From the NCBI RefSeq assembly GCF_002153425.1, contig NZ_KZ119600.1:4475795-4517429 (forward strand): a DNA stretch of 41,635 bases. Reading direction: 5' to 3'. Within the stretch, counting starts at the first letter, position 1, and each line of letters begins with the position of its first letter. Below the pieces are notes generated by a model. That model worked only from the letters and a program-made list of their open reading frames with translations, had not been told where the DNA came from and searched no databases. This document shows, piece by piece, positions 1 to 41,635 of the stretch. The translations under genes were made by a program, and so were the position numbers. Origin of the DNA: Litchfieldia alkalitelluris. GTDB taxonomy: Bacteria; Bacillota; Bacilli; Bacillales; Salisediminibacteriaceae.

Positions 1-240
1 TGCTAATAAATTCAAATCTGTCGGTATTACCTTCTCTTATCGACAGTTTTGCTTCTAATAAATTCAAATCTGTCGGTATTACCTTGTCTTATCGACAGTT
101 TTGCTGCTAATAAATTCAAATCTGCCGGTATTACCTTGTCTTATCAACAGTTTTGTTGCTGAAAAATTCAAATCTGTCGTTATTACTTTGCTTCATGGAC
201 AGTTTTCCGCTCCAATACATTAAAACTGTCTTTAGAAAAC
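1..240. repeat. 52-bp hairpin tandem array A (about 4-5 units, cut by window edge)
   Basis: Four clear tandem units start with CTAATAAATTCAAAT-like sequence near 3, 55, 107 and 159, exactly 52 bp apart, and a decayed fifth starts near 210. Each unit carries an inverted repeat. In units 1 and 2 the arms CTGTCGGTA and TATCGACAG (9 bp with one G:T pair) flank an 11-nt loop. From TGTC to GACA is 27 bp and the linker to the next TGTC is 25 bp, the same geometry as the arrays at 24609 and 41186. Units 3 and 4 have arm mismatches and look decayed. No coding potential is apparent. The array probably extends left of the window. Confidence 0.85.
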
Positions 241-10346: not shown

Positions 10347-10396
10347 ATCTTTTCATCTCCTTCCGCCCTGAATCTCTCGAAACAGAGTTATCTATT

Positions 10397-23873: not shown

Positions 23874-24386
23874 TTATAGAAGATCCTCTTCATCTGATTC
23901 AGCTTCTATTTCTTCCTCATCTTCATCAAAATCTTCATCTAAGTCGGTATCTTCTTCTTTATCTTCATCAAAGTCTTCTTCATTTGCTAACTCATCAAGC
24001 TCATCTTCTAAATCTTCAAACTCATCGAAGTCTTCTTCGTCGTCAACTAAGTAATCTTCATCTTCCTCGTCTTCAGTACGTTTTTTCTTCTTCCGTGGCT
24101 TATTTGTTTGAGACAGTTCTTCTTCAGTCTGATCAAACGGGAACCATGAACGAAGGCCCCATTGATTATCACCGAGATTAACAAAACGACCATCGACAGA
24201 CATTTCCGTGTATAGATGTGCAATTCGATTTGTTACCTCTTCTTCTGTTAAACCTTTTACTTTCGCAACTTCTTTTAACAATGCATAATAATCCGTGTTA
24301 GTTTTCGATTCTTTTAACAGCTCATAAGTTATTTCAAGCATTGCAACTTCCTTAAGCTGCTCTTTAGTATATTTATTGATGCTCAC
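23874..24386 (-). CDS. rpoE: DNA-directed RNA polymerase delta subunit
   Basis: This is a 170-residue delta subunit of Firmicute RNA polymerase, which reduces nonspecific RNA and DNA binding and speeds polymerase recycling. The N-terminal HARE-HTH winged-helix domain (about 1-90) ends with the conserved WGLRSWFPFD. A lysine/arginine patch (KPRKKKKR) follows, then a long unstructured tail almost wholly Asp and Glu, as in the family. GTG at 24386 has AAAGG about ten bases upstream; a GTG three codons earlier is too close to it. In B. subtilis rpoE follows acdA directly; here the repeat array and the icmF operon intervene. Confidence 0.95.
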   Translation of the reverse strand: MSINKYTKEQLKEVAMLEITYELLKESKTNTDYYALLKEVAKVKGLTEEEVTNRIAHLYTEMSVDGRFVNLGDNQWGLRSWFPFDQTEEELSQTNKPRKKKKRTEDEEDEDYLVDDEEDFDEFEDLEDELDELANEEDFDEDKEEDTDLDEDFDEDEEEIEAESDEEDLL

Positions 24387-24608
24387 GGTCTGCACTTCCT
24401 TTCAACTGGGAACATTTTATTATTATCACCTATGATTTTTGAAAACATCTATGGTGTACAAATCAACGCTGAATTCATACCTTTCATTATAAACATATCT
24501 GCTCTAATTATGCCAGTCTATACCATTAATTCGTCAAGACTTTTTTGAATTTTATCTCTGTATACCATGATAGACAATATCTGTGCGTTTAATCCCCTAT
24601 ATTTTTGA

Positions 24609-26300
24609 TGTCCGCTGCTCCTGCTTCTGCGGACATTTACTGCTTGATTCGCTTACCTTTTGTCCGCTGCTCTTGCTTCTGCGGACATTTACTGCGTGGA
24701 TCGATTGTCTTTTGTCCGCTGCTCTTGCTTCTGCGGACATTTACTGCTTGATTCGTTTGCATTTTGTCCGCTGCTTCTGCTTCTGCGGACATTTACAGCG
24801 TGGATCGCTTACCTTTTGTCCGCTGCTCCTGCTTCTGCGGACATTTACTGCGTGATTCGCTTAACTTTTGTCCGCTGCTCCTGCTGCTGCGGACATTTAC
24901 TACGTGGATCGATTGTCTTTTGTCCGCTGCTCTTGCTTCTGCGGACATTTACTGCTTGATTCGCTTACCTTTTGTCCGCTGCTTCTGCTGCTCCGGACAT
25001 TTGCAGCTTGATTCGCTTACCTTTTGTCCGCTGATACTGCTGCTGCGGACATTTACTGCTTGGATCGTCTGACTTTTGTCCGCTGCTTCTGCTTCTGCGG
25101 ACATTTACTGCGTGGATCGCTTACCTTTTGTCCGCTGCTCCTGCTTCTGCGGACATTTACTGCGTGATTCGCTTAACTTTTGTCCGCTGCTCCTGCTGCT
25201 GCGGACATTTACTACGTGGATCGATTGTCTTTTGTCCGCTGCTCTTGCTTCTGCGGACATTTACTGCTTGATTCGCTTACCTTTTGTCCGCTGCTTCTGC
25301 TGCTCCGGACATTTGCAGCTTGATTCGCTTACCTTTTGTCCGCTGATACTGCTGCTGCGGACATTTACTGCTTGGATCGTCTGACTTTTGTCCGCTGCTT
25401 CTGCTTCTGCGGACATTTACTGCGTGGATCGCTTACCTTTTGTCCGCTGCTCCTGCTTCTGCGGACATTTACTGCGTGATTCGCTTAACTTTTGTCCGCT
25501 GCTCCTGCTGCTGCGGACATTTACTACGTGGATCGATTGTCTTTTGTCCGCTGCTCTTGCTTCTGCGGACATTTACTGCTTGATTCGCTTACCTTTTGTC
25601 CGCTGCTTCTGCTGCTCCGGACATTTGCAGCTTGATTCGCTTACCTTTTGTCCGCTGATACTGCTGCTGCGGACATTTACTGCTTGGATCGTCTGACTTT
25701 TGTCCGCTGCTTCTGCTTCTGCGGACATTTACTGCGTGGATCGCTTACCTTTTGTCCGCTGCTCCTGCTTCTGCGGACATTTACTGCGTGATTCGCTTAA
25801 CTTTTGTCCGCTGCTCCTGCTGCTGCGGACATTTACTACGTGGATCGATTGTCTTTTGTCCGCTGCTCTTGCTTCTGCGGACATTTACTGCTTGATTCGC
25901 TTACCTTTTGTCCGCTGCTTCTGCTGCTCCGGACATTTGCAGCTTGATTCGCTTACCTTTTGTCCGCTGATACTGCTGCTGCGGACATTTACTGCTTGGA
26001 TCGTCTGACTTTTGTCCGCTGCTTCTGCTTCTGCGGACATTTACTGCGTGGATCGCTTACCTTTTGTCCGCTGCTCCTGCTTCTGCGGACATTTACTGCG
26101 TGGATCGCTTACCTTTTGTCCGCTGCTTCTGCTGCTGCGGACATTTGCAGCTTGATTCGCTTACCTTTTGTCCGCTGATACTGCTGCTGCGGACATTTAC
26201 TGCGTAATTCGTTTGCATTTTGTCCGCTGATACTGATTTTGCGAACATTTACAACCTCAAACACTTGCCAGTTGTCCGCAGCTGAGATATTTGCAACATG
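24609..26300. repeat. 52-bp hairpin tandem array B (33 units)
   Basis: TGTCCGC recurs at 24609, 24661, 24713 and so on to 26273, always at multiples of 52 bp, without one indel. Each unit has TGTCCGC, a 13-nt pyrimidine-rich loop (for example TGCTCCTGCTTCT), GCGGACA, and a 25-bp linker such as TTTACTGCGTGGATCGCTTA plus CCTTT. The arms are nearly invariant while loops and linkers vary. The last two units are degenerate. GC content is above the surroundings. It occupies the rpoE-icmF spacer. The multi-frame openness is a by-product of composition: 52 is not a multiple of three and no ribosome binding site was seen. Confidence 0.95.
24764..26011. repeat. 312-bp higher-order repeat (four tandem copies) inside array B
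   Basis: Blocks of six 52-bp units starting at 24764, 25076, 25388 and 25700 are essentially identical. By eye the only difference is one base in copy 1 (ACATTTACAGCG instead of ACATTTACTGCG). Within a block the six units differ from each other. A partial fifth copy of nearly two units follows. This is the pattern of recent unequal crossing-over or slippage of a six-unit block, so the copy number in an assembly may be unreliable. Confidence 0.9.
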
Positions 26301-26422: not shown

Positions 26423-26515
26423 AATGAAGACTCAAATCGTTTCGTTTACGCATCTAACGACAATACCGAAGCTGACTAAACGCGTTTTGTCGTTAGTTTG
26501 CGGATTAGTCTTCAT
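26423..26515. repeat. imperfect long inverted repeat
   Basis: AATGAAGACT (from 26423) and CTAACGACAA (26454-26463) on the left are mirrored by TTGTCGTTAG (26487-26496) and AGTCTTCATT on the right, with unequal spacers (21 and 10 nt) between the two arm pairs. It forms a cruciform or hairpin of about 20 paired bases. No recognisable transposon end. Confidence 0.65.
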
Positions 26516-26585
26516 TCTGAACTCAAAGCCATCCATAAACTCCATAATCCATAAAAAACTAAAAAATTTTTCTATATTTCCCCTT

Positions 26586-26627
26586 AAAAAATACACCTCA
26601 CAAAATTAGTAGACATTTTGTGAGGTG
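26586..26627 (-). terminator. intrinsic terminator of the icmF operon
   Basis: CACCTCACAAAA (26594-26605) and TTTTGTGAGGTG (26616-26627) form a perfect 12-bp stem with a 10-nt loop; on the minus strand TATTTTTT follows. It lies about 90 nt past the icmF stop codon. Confidence 0.9.
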
Positions 26628-26717
26628 CACGTTTTACGATTGCTCAAAATCCCTATCGAAAATTACAATTACAATCGCTCAAAATAACCAACAACAATTA
26701 AAAATCCCCATCTACAT

Positions 26718-29700
26718 TTACAGATTCCTTCTGTATTTCCCACCCACTTCATAGAGTGCACCAGTTATTTGGCCTAGGCTTGCTACTTTTACAGTTTCCA
26801 TCAGTTCCTCAAACAGGTTTCCTCCGGTCAAAGCTACTTCTTTTAGACGGGCCAAGGCCACCTGGGCCTCCTCCTTGTGCTGCTCTTGAAACTTCCGTAA
26901 GTTGCTTATTTGCTCTTCCTTCTCTTCTTTAGTCGCCCTAGCTAATTCCATTTCAAATTCTTCCTCTGAAGGAGGATTTGGATTGAGGTACGTATTAACT
27001 CCGATGATTGGGAGGTCACCATTATGTTTTAACGTTTCATATAAAAGAGACTCCTCTTGAATTTTTCCACGCTGGTATTGGGTTTCCATTGCACCCAGAA
27101 CACCCCCGCGATCGTTCATTCGCTCTAATTCAAGAAGGACGGCTTCTTCCACAAGGTCAGTCAGTTCCTCAACAATAAAGGATCCTTGCTGTGGATTTTC
27201 ATTCTTTGCTAATCCGAGCTCCTTAGTAATGATCATTTGTATAGCCATGGCGCGCCGCACGCTTTCTTCGGTTGGTGTTGTTACAGCCTCATCGTAAGCA
27301 TTTGTGTGCAAGGAATTACAATTATCATAGATTGCTAGCAATGCCTGAAGAGTCGTTCGAATATCGTTGAAGTCTACCTCCATGGCATGAAGGGAGCGCC
27401 CTGATGTCTGAATATGGTATTTCAACTTCTGACTTCGAGCATTCGCACCGTATTTTTCCCGCATAGCCACTGCCCAAATACGCCGGGCAACTCTGCCGAT
27501 TACTGTGTATTCAGGATCAAGTCCATTGCTAAAAAAGAAAGATAGATTCGGCGCGAAGTCATTCACGTCCATTCCGCGGCTTAAATAGTACTCCACATAA
27601 GTGAATCCATTAGCTAGTGTGAAGGCCAGTTGACTAATCGGATTGGCCCCCGCTTCGGCAATGTGGTAACCGCTAATTGAAACAGAATAGTAGTTTCTCA
27701 CGCGGTGATCAATAAAATATTGTTGGATATCGCCCATCATTCGGAGGGCAAATTCCGTAGAAAAAATACACGTGTTCTGTCCTTGATCTTCCTTTAAAAT
27801 GTCAGCTTGGACTGTTCCACGCACGGTTGACAAAGTAAACTCCTTGATTTCAGCACGCTCTGCCTCATTTGGATCTCTACCATTTTGTATTGCAAAAGCA
27901 TCTAATTGCTGTTGAATCGCTGTATTCATAAACATGGCCAAGATGATTGGCGCAGGGCCATTAATTGTCATAGATACGGAGGTGGTAGGTGCACAAAGGT
28001 CGAAGCCATCATACAATTTTTTCATATCATCGAGGGTACAGATGCTCACACCACTCTCCCCGACTTTCCCGTAAATATCTGGTCTGTAATCAGGGTCTTC
28101 CCCGTATAGTGTTACGGAGTCGAAAGCCGTGCTCAGACGTTTTGCCTCGTCATCTTTTGACAAGTAGTGGAAGCGCCGGTTCGTTCGGCTCGGGCCACCT
28201 TCGCCAGCGAATTGTCGCTTTGGATCCTCCCCTTTTCGCTTGAATGGGAAAACTCCTGCAGTGTACGGGAACTCGCCAGGAACATTTTCCTTGCGAACCC
28301 AACGAACAATTTCCCCATAATCTGCAAAACCAGGTAGGGCTACCTTTGGTATATCGAGGCCAGACAAACTTCTAGTCTTAAGCTCAGTAACAATTTCTTT
28401 ATCACGAATTTTTGTCACAAACTTATCTTGCTTGTATTTATCTTTTTTATCTTCCCATGTTTCTATCGTTTCCTTCGTTTCTTCACTTAGGGAATCAGCA
28501 ATTCGTTCCCGTAAACCTTCTATTCTGGCGTCCACTGGGCCCCCGACATCCCCGACGTTCCCGCTGTCCCCTGCATGCTCGACTTCCCTGATGTCTCCTG
28601 CTTGCCTGGCGTCTCCTGCGTGCCCGACGTCCACTGCGTTCCTTGACTTTGCCCCTCCTAATTCCCCCAACTCCTGGAGAGCTTCCAACGTTCCTTCTAC
28701 TTGGAATAAGCGCCTTGCTTTTTTTACTTCTTCTATTGTCTCATCATGGTACTGCTTTACGGATTGGGAAATCTCTCGTAAATAATGAACTTGCTCTGGA
28801 GGGATAATGACTTTTTTCAACGTGATTTCATCATTTTTCCCAAAATCAGTCTCCCATTTATCTTCACCGTATTTCCTCCTAAGCACTTGAGCTAGCTCGT
28901 AAAATAATCGATTTGTACCTGCGTCATTAAACTGGCTTGCGATCGTTCCATATACAGGCATTTCCTCTACATTCCTCTCAAACAAGGTATGACTTCGCTG
29001 ATACGCCTTTCGAACCTCACGTAAAGCATCTTCTGAACCTTTCCGCTCAAACTTATTTATAGCAATCAAATCTGCAAAGTCGATCATATCGATTTTTTCC
29101 AACTGTGTTGGCGCACCAAATTCACTTGTCATCACATACATGGACACGTCAGCAACATCGGTAATGGCAGCATCCCCTTGCCCAATCCCGCTCGTCTCCA
29201 CAATAATTAAGTCATAGCCAGCAAGCTTCACAACGCGAATCGCCTCTTCAATTGCTTTAGATAATTCCTGCCTGCTATCCCTCGTTGCTAAGGAACGCAT
29301 GTATACACGCGGGTGGTGGATGGCGTTCATTCGAATCCGATCACCGAGGAGGGCTCCTCCAGTTTTTCGTTTCGTAGGGTCTACGGAAAGAATGGCCAAT
29401 GTTTTTTCTGGAAAAGCCATTAAGTATCTCCGCACAAGTTCATCAGTGAGTGAGCTCTTCCCGGCCCCGCCAGTACCCGTAATCCCAAGGACAGGAATTT
29501 CTGATTGGATGCTCACCTCCGTAACAGCTTTAGAAAAAAATAAGTCAGCATTTTCTGAAATTTCTTCTTGGAAAGTCTTCTGTTCTGCAATACTTATCAG
29601 CCTTGCTACTGACTTTGAATCTTTCTTCTTCAGATTTTCCGTATCTAAATCTTCCACATCGTCCAATGGGAAATCACATAATTCTACCATTTCGTTTATC

Positions 29701-30098
29701 ATTCCCTGAAGCCCCTGCTGTCGTCCATCTTCTGGTGAATAGATTCTCGTAATCCCGTATTCTTGCAACTCTTTAATTTCCGATGGGATGATAACCCCAC
29801 CGCCACCACCGAATATTTTTATATGAGAAGCGCCACGTTCATGTAGCAAATCATACAAGTATTTAAAATATTCCACATGTCCGCCTTGATAGGAGGAAAT
29901 AGCAATCCCTTGCACATCTTCCTGTATTGCTGCCTGGACAATTTCATCTACGGAACGGTTATGTCCTAAATGAATTACTTCAGCCCCAGTTGCCTGCAGC
30001 ATTCTCCTCATGATATTAATAGAAGCATCATGGCCGTCAAATAAACTTGATGCAGTAACAAATCGAACTGCATGCTTCGGTTGATATTTCATTTCCAT
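26718..30098 (-). CDS. icmF: Fused isobutyryl-CoA mutase IcmF
   Basis: This is a 1126-residue adenosylcobalamin enzyme that interconverts isobutyryl-CoA and n-butyryl-CoA (some homologues act on isovaleryl/pivalyl-CoA). The B12-binding domain comes first ([12 protein letters not shown] at 21-32, His23 as likely cobalt ligand, and GGGGGVI at about 97-103). A MeaB-like GTPase chaperone domain follows (P-loop GTGGAGKSS at 208-216), then a linker and the mutase TIM-barrel domain (about 545-1126). This order defines IcmF. It is somewhat longer than usual because of a Gly/Asp/Ala-rich repetitive linker near 486-520. GGAGGGA lies seven bases before the ATG, and tetR ends one base earlier. Last gene of the operon. 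Confidence 0.95.
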
Positions 30099-41185: not shown

Positions 41186-41635
41186 TGTCCGCAGCTTGTG
41201 GGGCTATGGACAATTACAGCCTTAATCGCTGGCATTTTGTCCGCTGCTCATGCTTCTACGGACAATTACAGCCTCAATCACTGGCATTTTGTCCGCTGCT
41301 CATGCTTCTGCGGACAATTACAGCCTCAATCACTAGCATTTTGTCCGCTGCTTCTGCTTCTGCGGACAATTACAACGTGAATCACTAGCATTTTGTCCGC
41401 TGACTCTGTTTCTGCGGACAATTACAGCCTCAATCACTGGCATTTTGTCCGCTGACTCTGTTTCTGCGGACAGTTCCAACGTGAATCACTAGCATTTTGT
41501 CCGCTGACTATGTTTCTGCGGACAATTACAACGTGAATCACTAGCATTTTGTCCGCTGACTATGTTTCTGCGGACAGTTGCTGCCTTAATCGCTGGCATT
41601 TTGTCCGCTGACTATGTTTCTGCGGACAGTTGCTG
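41186..41635. repeat. 52-bp hairpin tandem array C (at least nine units, cut by window edge)
   Basis: TGTCCGC starts at 41186, 41238, 41290, 41342, 41394, 41446, 41498, 41550 and 41602, every 52 bp. Arms TGTCCG and CGGACA are conserved in all but the first unit (TATGGACA). Loops change from TGCTCATGCTTCT-like to TGACTATGTTTCT-like along the array. The linker (ATTACAGCCTCAATCACTGG plus CATTT) is alignable to array B at TTAC.GC.T..ATC.CT..C. It is therefore the same family, diverged, 15 kb away, and continues beyond the window. Confidence 0.95.

Follow-up and report, generated by a model that had tools for sequence, protein, structure and literature searches.

A tandem array of 52-bp hairpin units in Litchfieldia alkalitelluris belongs to a constant-length satellite class, most of whose arrays in this genome keep one orientation relative to replication

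Upstream of rpoE in Litchfieldia alkalitelluris lies a bacterial satellite of the constant-length 52-nt Bacillus class. The analysis of the window, by which we mean the whole stretch of 41,635 nucleotides (contig NZ_KZ119600.1, 4,475,795 to 4,517,429), and of the surrounding genome confirms this array as a clean member of a class that is known but unexplained. Each unit has dyad symmetry, which in the TGTC families takes the form of a 27-nt stem-loop followed by a 25-nt linker, and the array of the window grew by whole blocks of units. Most such arrays point in one direction relative to the replication fork, which also holds between convergent genes, and the positions and sequences of the arrays turn over between species. 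As the cause we favour, with some hesitation, a hairpin-driven and replication-coupled tandem amplification of DNA over a lattice of bound protein. The class itself is said to have been first described in a J Bacteriol paper of 2020.

Results

Structure of the array in the window

The array occupies 24609..26272, and its purine-rich, leading-sense reading is the - strand. Cut at 52-base steps from 24609, the sequence yields 32 full units of family A without any indel; TRF gives period 52 with 31.6 copies (24609-26252) and in addition a period of 312 bp with 96% matches. An initial annotation of the sequence had counted 33 phased units. Of these, 32 stand in register and free of indels, but the 33rd is a remnant (26273..26300, - strand; unit comparison) in which the first 7 bases alone are intact and 28 of 52 bases differ from the consensus. 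The unit before it, number 31 when counted from 0 (the remnant being unit 32, at 26273), shows 15 consensus differences and one broken pair. Both arms are exact in 27 units, that is, TGTCCGC-N13-GCGGACA occurs 27 times between 24609 and 26195. Across the window there are 34 matches, the other seven at 41290-41628, and 100 shuffles of the window give none. Counted in relatives, the exact pattern is present in one of nine genomes of the genus and is species-specific.

Only 14 of the 32 units are distinct. In units 4-27 a higher-order block of six units (312 bp) is repeated four times without any difference (24817..26064, - strand; unit comparison and the TRF period of 312), and with 24 of 32 units in identical blocks the proposal of an exact amplification mechanism is supported. 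The exact phase of the array is therefore largely the product of recent block amplification and does not represent 33 independent tests. The evidence for selected spacing, which had been read from this phase, was overstated for the same reason, but a constraint on unit length is supported at the level of the class, since unrelated families in this genome and in congeners share 51-52 bp. Strict phasing at five helical turns is not required either: 15 of 69 catalogued arrays have period 51, and Salipaludibacillus daqingensis has period 53 in the orthologous gap. The phasing argument loses strength, since most units are recent copies and other arrays run at 51 or 53 bp.

Neighbourhood of the array

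The array lies 214 bp upstream of the start of rpoE (23874..24395, - strand; RNA polymerase delta subunit, NCBIfam TIGR04567), whose product has its best match, among three named, in Evansella tamaricis with 78% identity. On the other side follows icmF (26718..30098, - strand; NCBIfam NF045497) for the fused isobutyryl-CoA mutase/GTPase. Between icmF and the array, 3' of icmF, a consensus scan finds a terminator-like stem-loop (26591..26630, - strand); such a scan gives two sites in the region, versus a shuffle mean of 2.5. The same gap contains at 26423-26516 a 94-bp nested palindrome, in which F0-family (51-bp) arms AATGAAGACT..AGTCTTCATT surround a 43-bp family-C piece, CTAACGACA-N25-TGTCGTTAG. 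Its make-up suggests the insertion of one family into another, or a fusion of the two. At 28553-28639, within icmF, the part that encodes the linker of the protein contains short tandem repeats. The alignments of IcmF with six congeners are interrupted from about residue 482 to about residue 525, G001 aligns throughout, and by these alignments an additional repetitive segment seems to be present there in this species.

Two other arrays are found in the window. A second family-A array with 8.1 copies lies at 41208..41628 (- strand; TRF and motif count), with a further one just outside the window at genome position 4518457, and a related B-family array, TGTCGGTA..TATCGACA with period 52, lies at 1..230 (- strand; TRF and family catalogue). 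The ribosomal protein L31 leader (Rfam RF03156) is recognized at 10357-10387 on the - strand. At the gathering score Rfam gives no match at the window array, and comparison with plasmids (near mode) and phages (distant mode) gave no match.

Unit anatomy and stem covariation

In the TGTC families the hairpin span is 27 nt in 435 of 447 units, in a search that covered spans of 26-28 nt with at most one mismatch among the eight foot bases. From unit to unit the step is 52 in 388 of 407 cases. The absence of indels thus holds for the window array, but elsewhere in the genome TGTC-family steps deviate from 52 in 19 of 407 cases (50, 51 or 53 in 12, other values in 7). The two-unit pattern TGTC-N19-GACA-N25-TGTC-N19-GACA has 442 matches in the own genome and none for the reversed control, and it is present in 8 of 35 genomes of the family. 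Other families have different hairpins and spans, and 27 nt is not universal. By eye, the GTC/GAC feet are equally spaced in families A, B/D, C and the 51-bp family F0, and several consensus repeats in Table 1 of PMC8161180 likewise appear to contain a 27-nt stem-loop.

The 27-nt stem-loops of the TGTC families keep pairing while their arm sequences change. Pairs 5-9, which lie outside the bases fixed by the search pattern, are Watson-Crick in 70 of 100 cells, whereas 5,000 partner shuffles average 40.2 and never exceed 62. The set draws on 48 arrays from three genomes and comprises 20 distinct consensus arm pairs, which are partly related by descent and not independent. At pair 5, 10 of these have G-C and 8 have C-G. 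Paired arm changes, for which the initial annotation proposed to look, thus exist between families but not within the window array, where the changes are few and unpaired: a CCGGACA arm is common to four units, which are copies of one event, and GCGAACA occurs in one.

Arrays across the genome

We sampled the genome systematically with 40 stretches of 20 kb, one per 121 kb (800 kb in total). The sample contains 36 arrays with 19,953 array bases (2.49%), and by extrapolation the genome holds about 220 arrays. TRF periods in the sample peak at 51 and 52 (34 rows), followed by period 21 with 14 rows; other repeats occur as well. A first catalogue of 69 arrays has period 52 in 52 cases, 51 in 15, and 53 and 54 in one each, so that 68 of 69 fall within 51-53. 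Together with a 160-kb block the catalogue comprises 76 arrays, sorted into eight multi-member families and one singleton; beyond the 40 stretches and the block it is biased by the search patterns to TGTC families, the arrays there being those among the matches listed. Families of unrelated sequence have a common period of 51 or 52 in this genome, and inside each family the period is nearly uniform. One array outside the 50-54-bp filter (C1 4001432-4003300; L014, L063) has B-family units every 104 bases, which suggests that two alternating 52-bp unit types were amplified as a pair.

The initial annotation had argued that the repeats are not explained by coding. As far as tested this is right, as none of the 69 arrays lies within a longer open reading frame when frames consisting mostly of array are set aside. 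Only 4 of 64 arrays lie between divergent genes, most being in co-directional or convergent gaps. Solitary units are nearly absent: of 20 raw unit matches outside the catalogued arrays, 17 belong to a single missed array, and the remaining 3 include one at a stretch edge. Identity to the consensus is 0.87 within 57 arrays and drops to 0.36 immediately beyond either end, which is little informative with TRF-defined edges. Wrap-around alignment of 62 arrays counts 3,557 substitutions and 113 indel events, 35 of the 62 being free of indels; some of these events look like insertion-deletion artefacts of the alignment and homogenisation copies events, so that we claim no rate.

Among the 35 catalogued arrays of the sample, 23 start in stretches of the origin half and 12 in the terminus half, and the array bases amount to 15,033 versus 4,920 (including one array absent from the catalogue). 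The territories of the families differ (Kruskal p=0.003). A confinement of arrays to the origin half, which the TGTC patterns alone had indicated, is ruled out by other families in the terminus half of the sample and can hold for the TGTC families only. In contrast to the TGTC families, F6 is catalogued in the half around the terminus and F7 exclusively on the left arm, both in small numbers.

Orientation relative to replication

By GC skew the origin lies near coordinate 0 and the terminus at about 2.5 Mb; no match to DnaA was found in the own-genome stretches analysed. On these replichores the arrays mostly keep one orientation relative to replication. Family B/D has 10 plus and 2 minus arrays on the right arm and 1 plus and 9 minus on the left, F0 has 7 and 0 against 0 and 6, A has 4 and 0 against 0 and 8, and C has 2 and 0 against 0 and 4. 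For F2 the counts are 4 and 1 against 1 and 2, for F3 they are 1 and 1 against 0 and 4. Family F6 shows no polarity (1 and 1 on either arm), and F7, found on the left arm only and all alike, permits no contrast between arms. The summed net polarity is 59, while the highest of 20,000 random draws is 45; merging neighbouring arrays gives 51 versus 43. Agreement with the rest of the own family is seen for 65 of 75 arrays, or 61 of 71 without F7.

Grouped by their ORF-based context, 17 of 20 arrays in convergent gaps agree with the rest of their family, 28 of 31 where both genes run with the fork, 3 of 4 in divergent gaps and 12 of 12 in unknown context. Between two genes that run against the fork only 5 of 8 arrays follow replication, and gene direction may therefore contribute to the polarity. 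The purine-rich strand is the leading strand in 55 of 69 arrays; in 3 of 4 F7 arrays it is the lagging one. The skew is 0.093 in arrays versus 0.031 in other non-coding DNA. The motif GAGAAGGG, presumably of the SpoIIIE type, occurs six times in the leading sense and never in the other sense within 41,651 array bases, which is few to build on.

A second species, G002, has one family with plus orientation at five right-arm loci and minus orientation at three left-arm loci (8/8). The plus loci reach up to 2.26 Mb and the minus loci begin at 2.56 Mb; the skew changes sign at 2.14-2.53 Mb, so that the locus at 2.26 Mb is assigned to its arm and not measured. In another genus (G034) all six arrays examined among the matches listed, three of them on one contig, fit the local GC skew. 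This pattern is broken in other sets: TGTC arrays of G002 are identical in absolute orientation on both arms, against the rule, and in G007 5 of 7 and 2 of 4 arrays agree with the skew, with two skews near zero and several small contigs.

Turnover between species

The gap between rpoE and icmF has 52-bp TRF arrays in the own genome and in the congeners G002, G005 and G006, and by eye their units are unrelated. In G001 lag 52 gives the best self-match of the gap without a TRF array, and no 52-bp array is present there in G003, G004 and G008; the G007 contig ends about 0.5 kb past icmF. Salipaludibacillus daqingensis has two period-53 arrays (L147, 9479-9737 and 19868-20088), one of which lies in the rpoE-icmF gap. 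No array is found in this gap in S. neizhouensis nor in E. tamaricis, whose contig starts 434 bp before rpoE.

Over a syntenic block of 120-160 kb (40 kb in G008) and TRF periods of 45-60, there are 13 arrays in the own genome, 5 in G002, 1 in G005, 11 in G006, 1 in G003, 1 in G001 (period 58) and 0 in G008. Restricted to periods of 49-54 the numbers per 120 kb are 1 for G003, 1 for G005 and 0 for G001. Across orthologous gaps, the other species carries an array in 4 of 31 comparisons if the own gap is occupied and in 6 of 304 if it is array-free. Two G006 arrays lie where the own genes are 1-4 bp apart and the gaps of other species are short. Array position is thus mostly not conserved, with rpoE-icmF as one shared hot gap. 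Several contigs of the G007 draft (L194-L203) begin or end within 52-bp arrays, and draft genomes probably under-report them.

Discussion

The suggestion of an amplification driven by the hairpin and coupled to the replication fork rests on several observations: the orientation of families tracks the replichore in the own genome, in a second species and in another genus, the stems covary, amplification occurs in exact blocks, arrays are gained in single lineages such as the two in G006, solitary units are nearly absent, and there is no overall strand asymmetry of G.T and A.C mismatches. The unit would act as DNA. A stem-loop could form on single-stranded DNA at the fork and promote slippage or unequal sister exchange in register. 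Units with a pairing stem and a workable length would then expand, with a bias set by their orientation relative to the fork, and the arrays would be tolerated in gaps that mostly lack divergent promoters. Any benefit of an array would be collective and not local. Candidates for the ruler of 51-52 bp are the helix itself, at roughly five turns, and a replication protein with a footprint of this size.

We note, however, that slippage alone does not explain the dispersal of families over many loci. There are also exceptions to the polarity, namely 10 of 75 arrays, F6, F7, the TGTC family of G002 and G007, and inversions symmetric about the origin-terminus axis would keep the polarity without a fork mechanism. 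More cautiously still, we consider it possible that the constant-length Bacillus satellites form a replication-polarised DNA hairpin system, in which units are born, expanded and maintained mainly in one orientation and the 51-52-bp ruler derives from the replication machinery or the helix.

A possible, though less probable, cause is a protein lattice, in which the dyads would be binding sites of a protein that requires a distance of about five turns from unit to unit; the arrays would play a collective part in nucleoid organisation or in segregation, with the polarity reflecting a directional function of the chromosome. Apart from the polarity this corresponds to the published proposal (PMC8161180). 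A period near five turns in unrelated families speaks for such a lattice, as does the recurrence of TGTC-N19-GACA dyads across families and genomes, although the feet are fixed by the search pattern. So do the arm spacings of 20 and 32 bp in family A, about two and three turns, the larger share of array bases in the origin half of the sample (15.0 vs 4.9 kb) and the different territories of the families (Kruskal p=0.003). Yet the inner arm sequence varies between families, periods of 51 and 53 bp occur, positions are mostly not conserved, and G003, G005 and G001 manage with the 1, 1 and 0 arrays (period 49-54) per 120 kb given above.

Y1 transposases of the RAYT or IS200/IS605 type work on lagging-strand DNA, and the replication polarity of the arrays therefore suggested a mobilisation of REP/BIME-like hairpins by such enzymes. 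The own genome does have five Y1_Tnp genes, by our reading four long RAYT-like ones and a short IS200-like one, and the rarity of arrays between divergent genes (4/64) is a REP-like placement (PMC3733652). We nevertheless regard this origin as unlikely. There is no 52-bp array in the examined flanks of the five own Y1 genes, and nine array arm motifs give only one 7-base match, GGTATGA, within about 600 bp on each side of the four RAYT-like frames. Among 40 Y1 loci, in which some genes count twice, three have a 52-bp array, and only at L140, a truncated Y1 gene in G006, does it lie within about 300 bp. Solitary units, moreover, are nearly absent, and Y1 genes are present in all nine genomes of the genus whether arrays are few or many. 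The four RAYT-like genes (C1 3714046, 3980816, 4187216 and 4426070), all of them left-arm genes, differ in sequence; a hairpin with a 7-bp stem lies about 120 bp past the frame at 3980816.

The arrays might also be transcribed, with the hairpins acting in RNA as regulators, sponges or 3' ends, and a regularly folded RNA was among the proposals of the initial annotation. RNA-seq reports exist for the 52-nt repeats of B. coagulans (PMC8625621), and a stretch of two units folds more stably than its shuffles, with z of -5.7 and -3.6 for the two strands. The mismatches in the stems give no overall support. In families A and C, G.T exceeds A.C on the leading-sense strand (20 vs 9; 14/7 for A and 6/2 for C), but B/D has 24/37 and all TGTC families pooled have 44 vs 46. 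The replication orientation is kept in convergent gaps, the array has no Rfam match at the gathering score, and, as a weak point, a terminator-like stem separates icmF from it. A function in RNA thus seems improbable to us. As the RNA and transposase readings gained little support, fork-driven amplification or a protein lattice remain.

Least probable of all, and very doubtful, is a neutral descent from one ancient 52-bp array with inherited period, drifted sequence and a polarity kept by origin-symmetric inversions, for although the feet of A, B/D, C and F0 are by eye equally spaced and the period is nearly uniform within families, single species gained arrays in gaps that are small elsewhere and one gap carries unrelated sequences across congeners.

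The replication polarity is the result worth following. Together with the covarying stems it points to a testable cause, the fork, and not to a local regulatory role. If amplification at the fork is indeed the cause, the arrays would be a bacterial counterpart of orientation-dependent repeat expansion, with ever-new sequences and about 2.5% of the chromosome. On the practical side 52-bp arrays limit the assembly of such genomes, as the G007 contigs ending inside arrays illustrate.

Comparison with known systems

CRISPR loci combine a palindromic repeat with a spacer of constant length, the spacers being unique. The palindromic repeat and the constant-length spacer are found here as well, whereas the linkers of the array are themselves repeated (14 distinct units in 32) and tens of loci exist in the genome. 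The CIRCE element of HrcA has a 9-N9-9 geometry, which family C shares in geometry only, as its sequence differs and the arrays are long. REPs occur in many single or paired copies, unlike the present units, which are nearly absent as single copies. REP/BIME elements with RAYT resemble the arrays as short extragenic palindromes in many copies within co-directional or convergent gaps (PMC3733652). In the arrays, however, the TGTC foot pairs with GACA whereas a REP has an unpaired GTAG or CGTC tag, and the arrays are long, of fixed period and not found beside the own RAYT-like genes.

Closest to the arrays are the Bacillus tandem repeats with a constant length of 52 nt (Subirana and Messeguer 2021, PMC8161180). 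Both this class with its fixed unit length and the proposals of a nucleoid or RNA role are published (PMC8161180, PMC8625621, PMC6749651), and the text of PMC8161180 reports that other repeat lengths are scarce and that array positions are partially conserved between B. coagulans strains; its Table 4 lists no 51-53-nt repeats for B. subtilis. Our arrays agree with that description in their period of 51-53, in being non-coding, in the several unrelated families per genome and in species-specific sequence with partial conservation of position between strains. The short signal and its reverse within one repeat correspond here to the TGTCCGC..GCGGACA arms, and G002 even carries the B. cellulosilyticus family 61_52_6 of PMC8161180. 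B. cellulosilyticus is now named Evansella cellulosilytica, and with the RpoE match to E. tamaricis this suggests Evansella as the genus that the window shares with G002. The main text of that paper makes no mention of hairpin, palindrome, intergenic location or origin of replication, and its single "replication" is unrelated to orientation; the term "leading strand" is absent from the two papers by its authors that were examined for it. Stem covariation, replication polarity and the gap-by-gap comparison of species are not described in the literature examined and are added here. Why bacterial satellites of fixed length without fixed sequence exist is a question raised in print (PMC8161180), and the array upstream of rpoE is one more satellite to which it applies.
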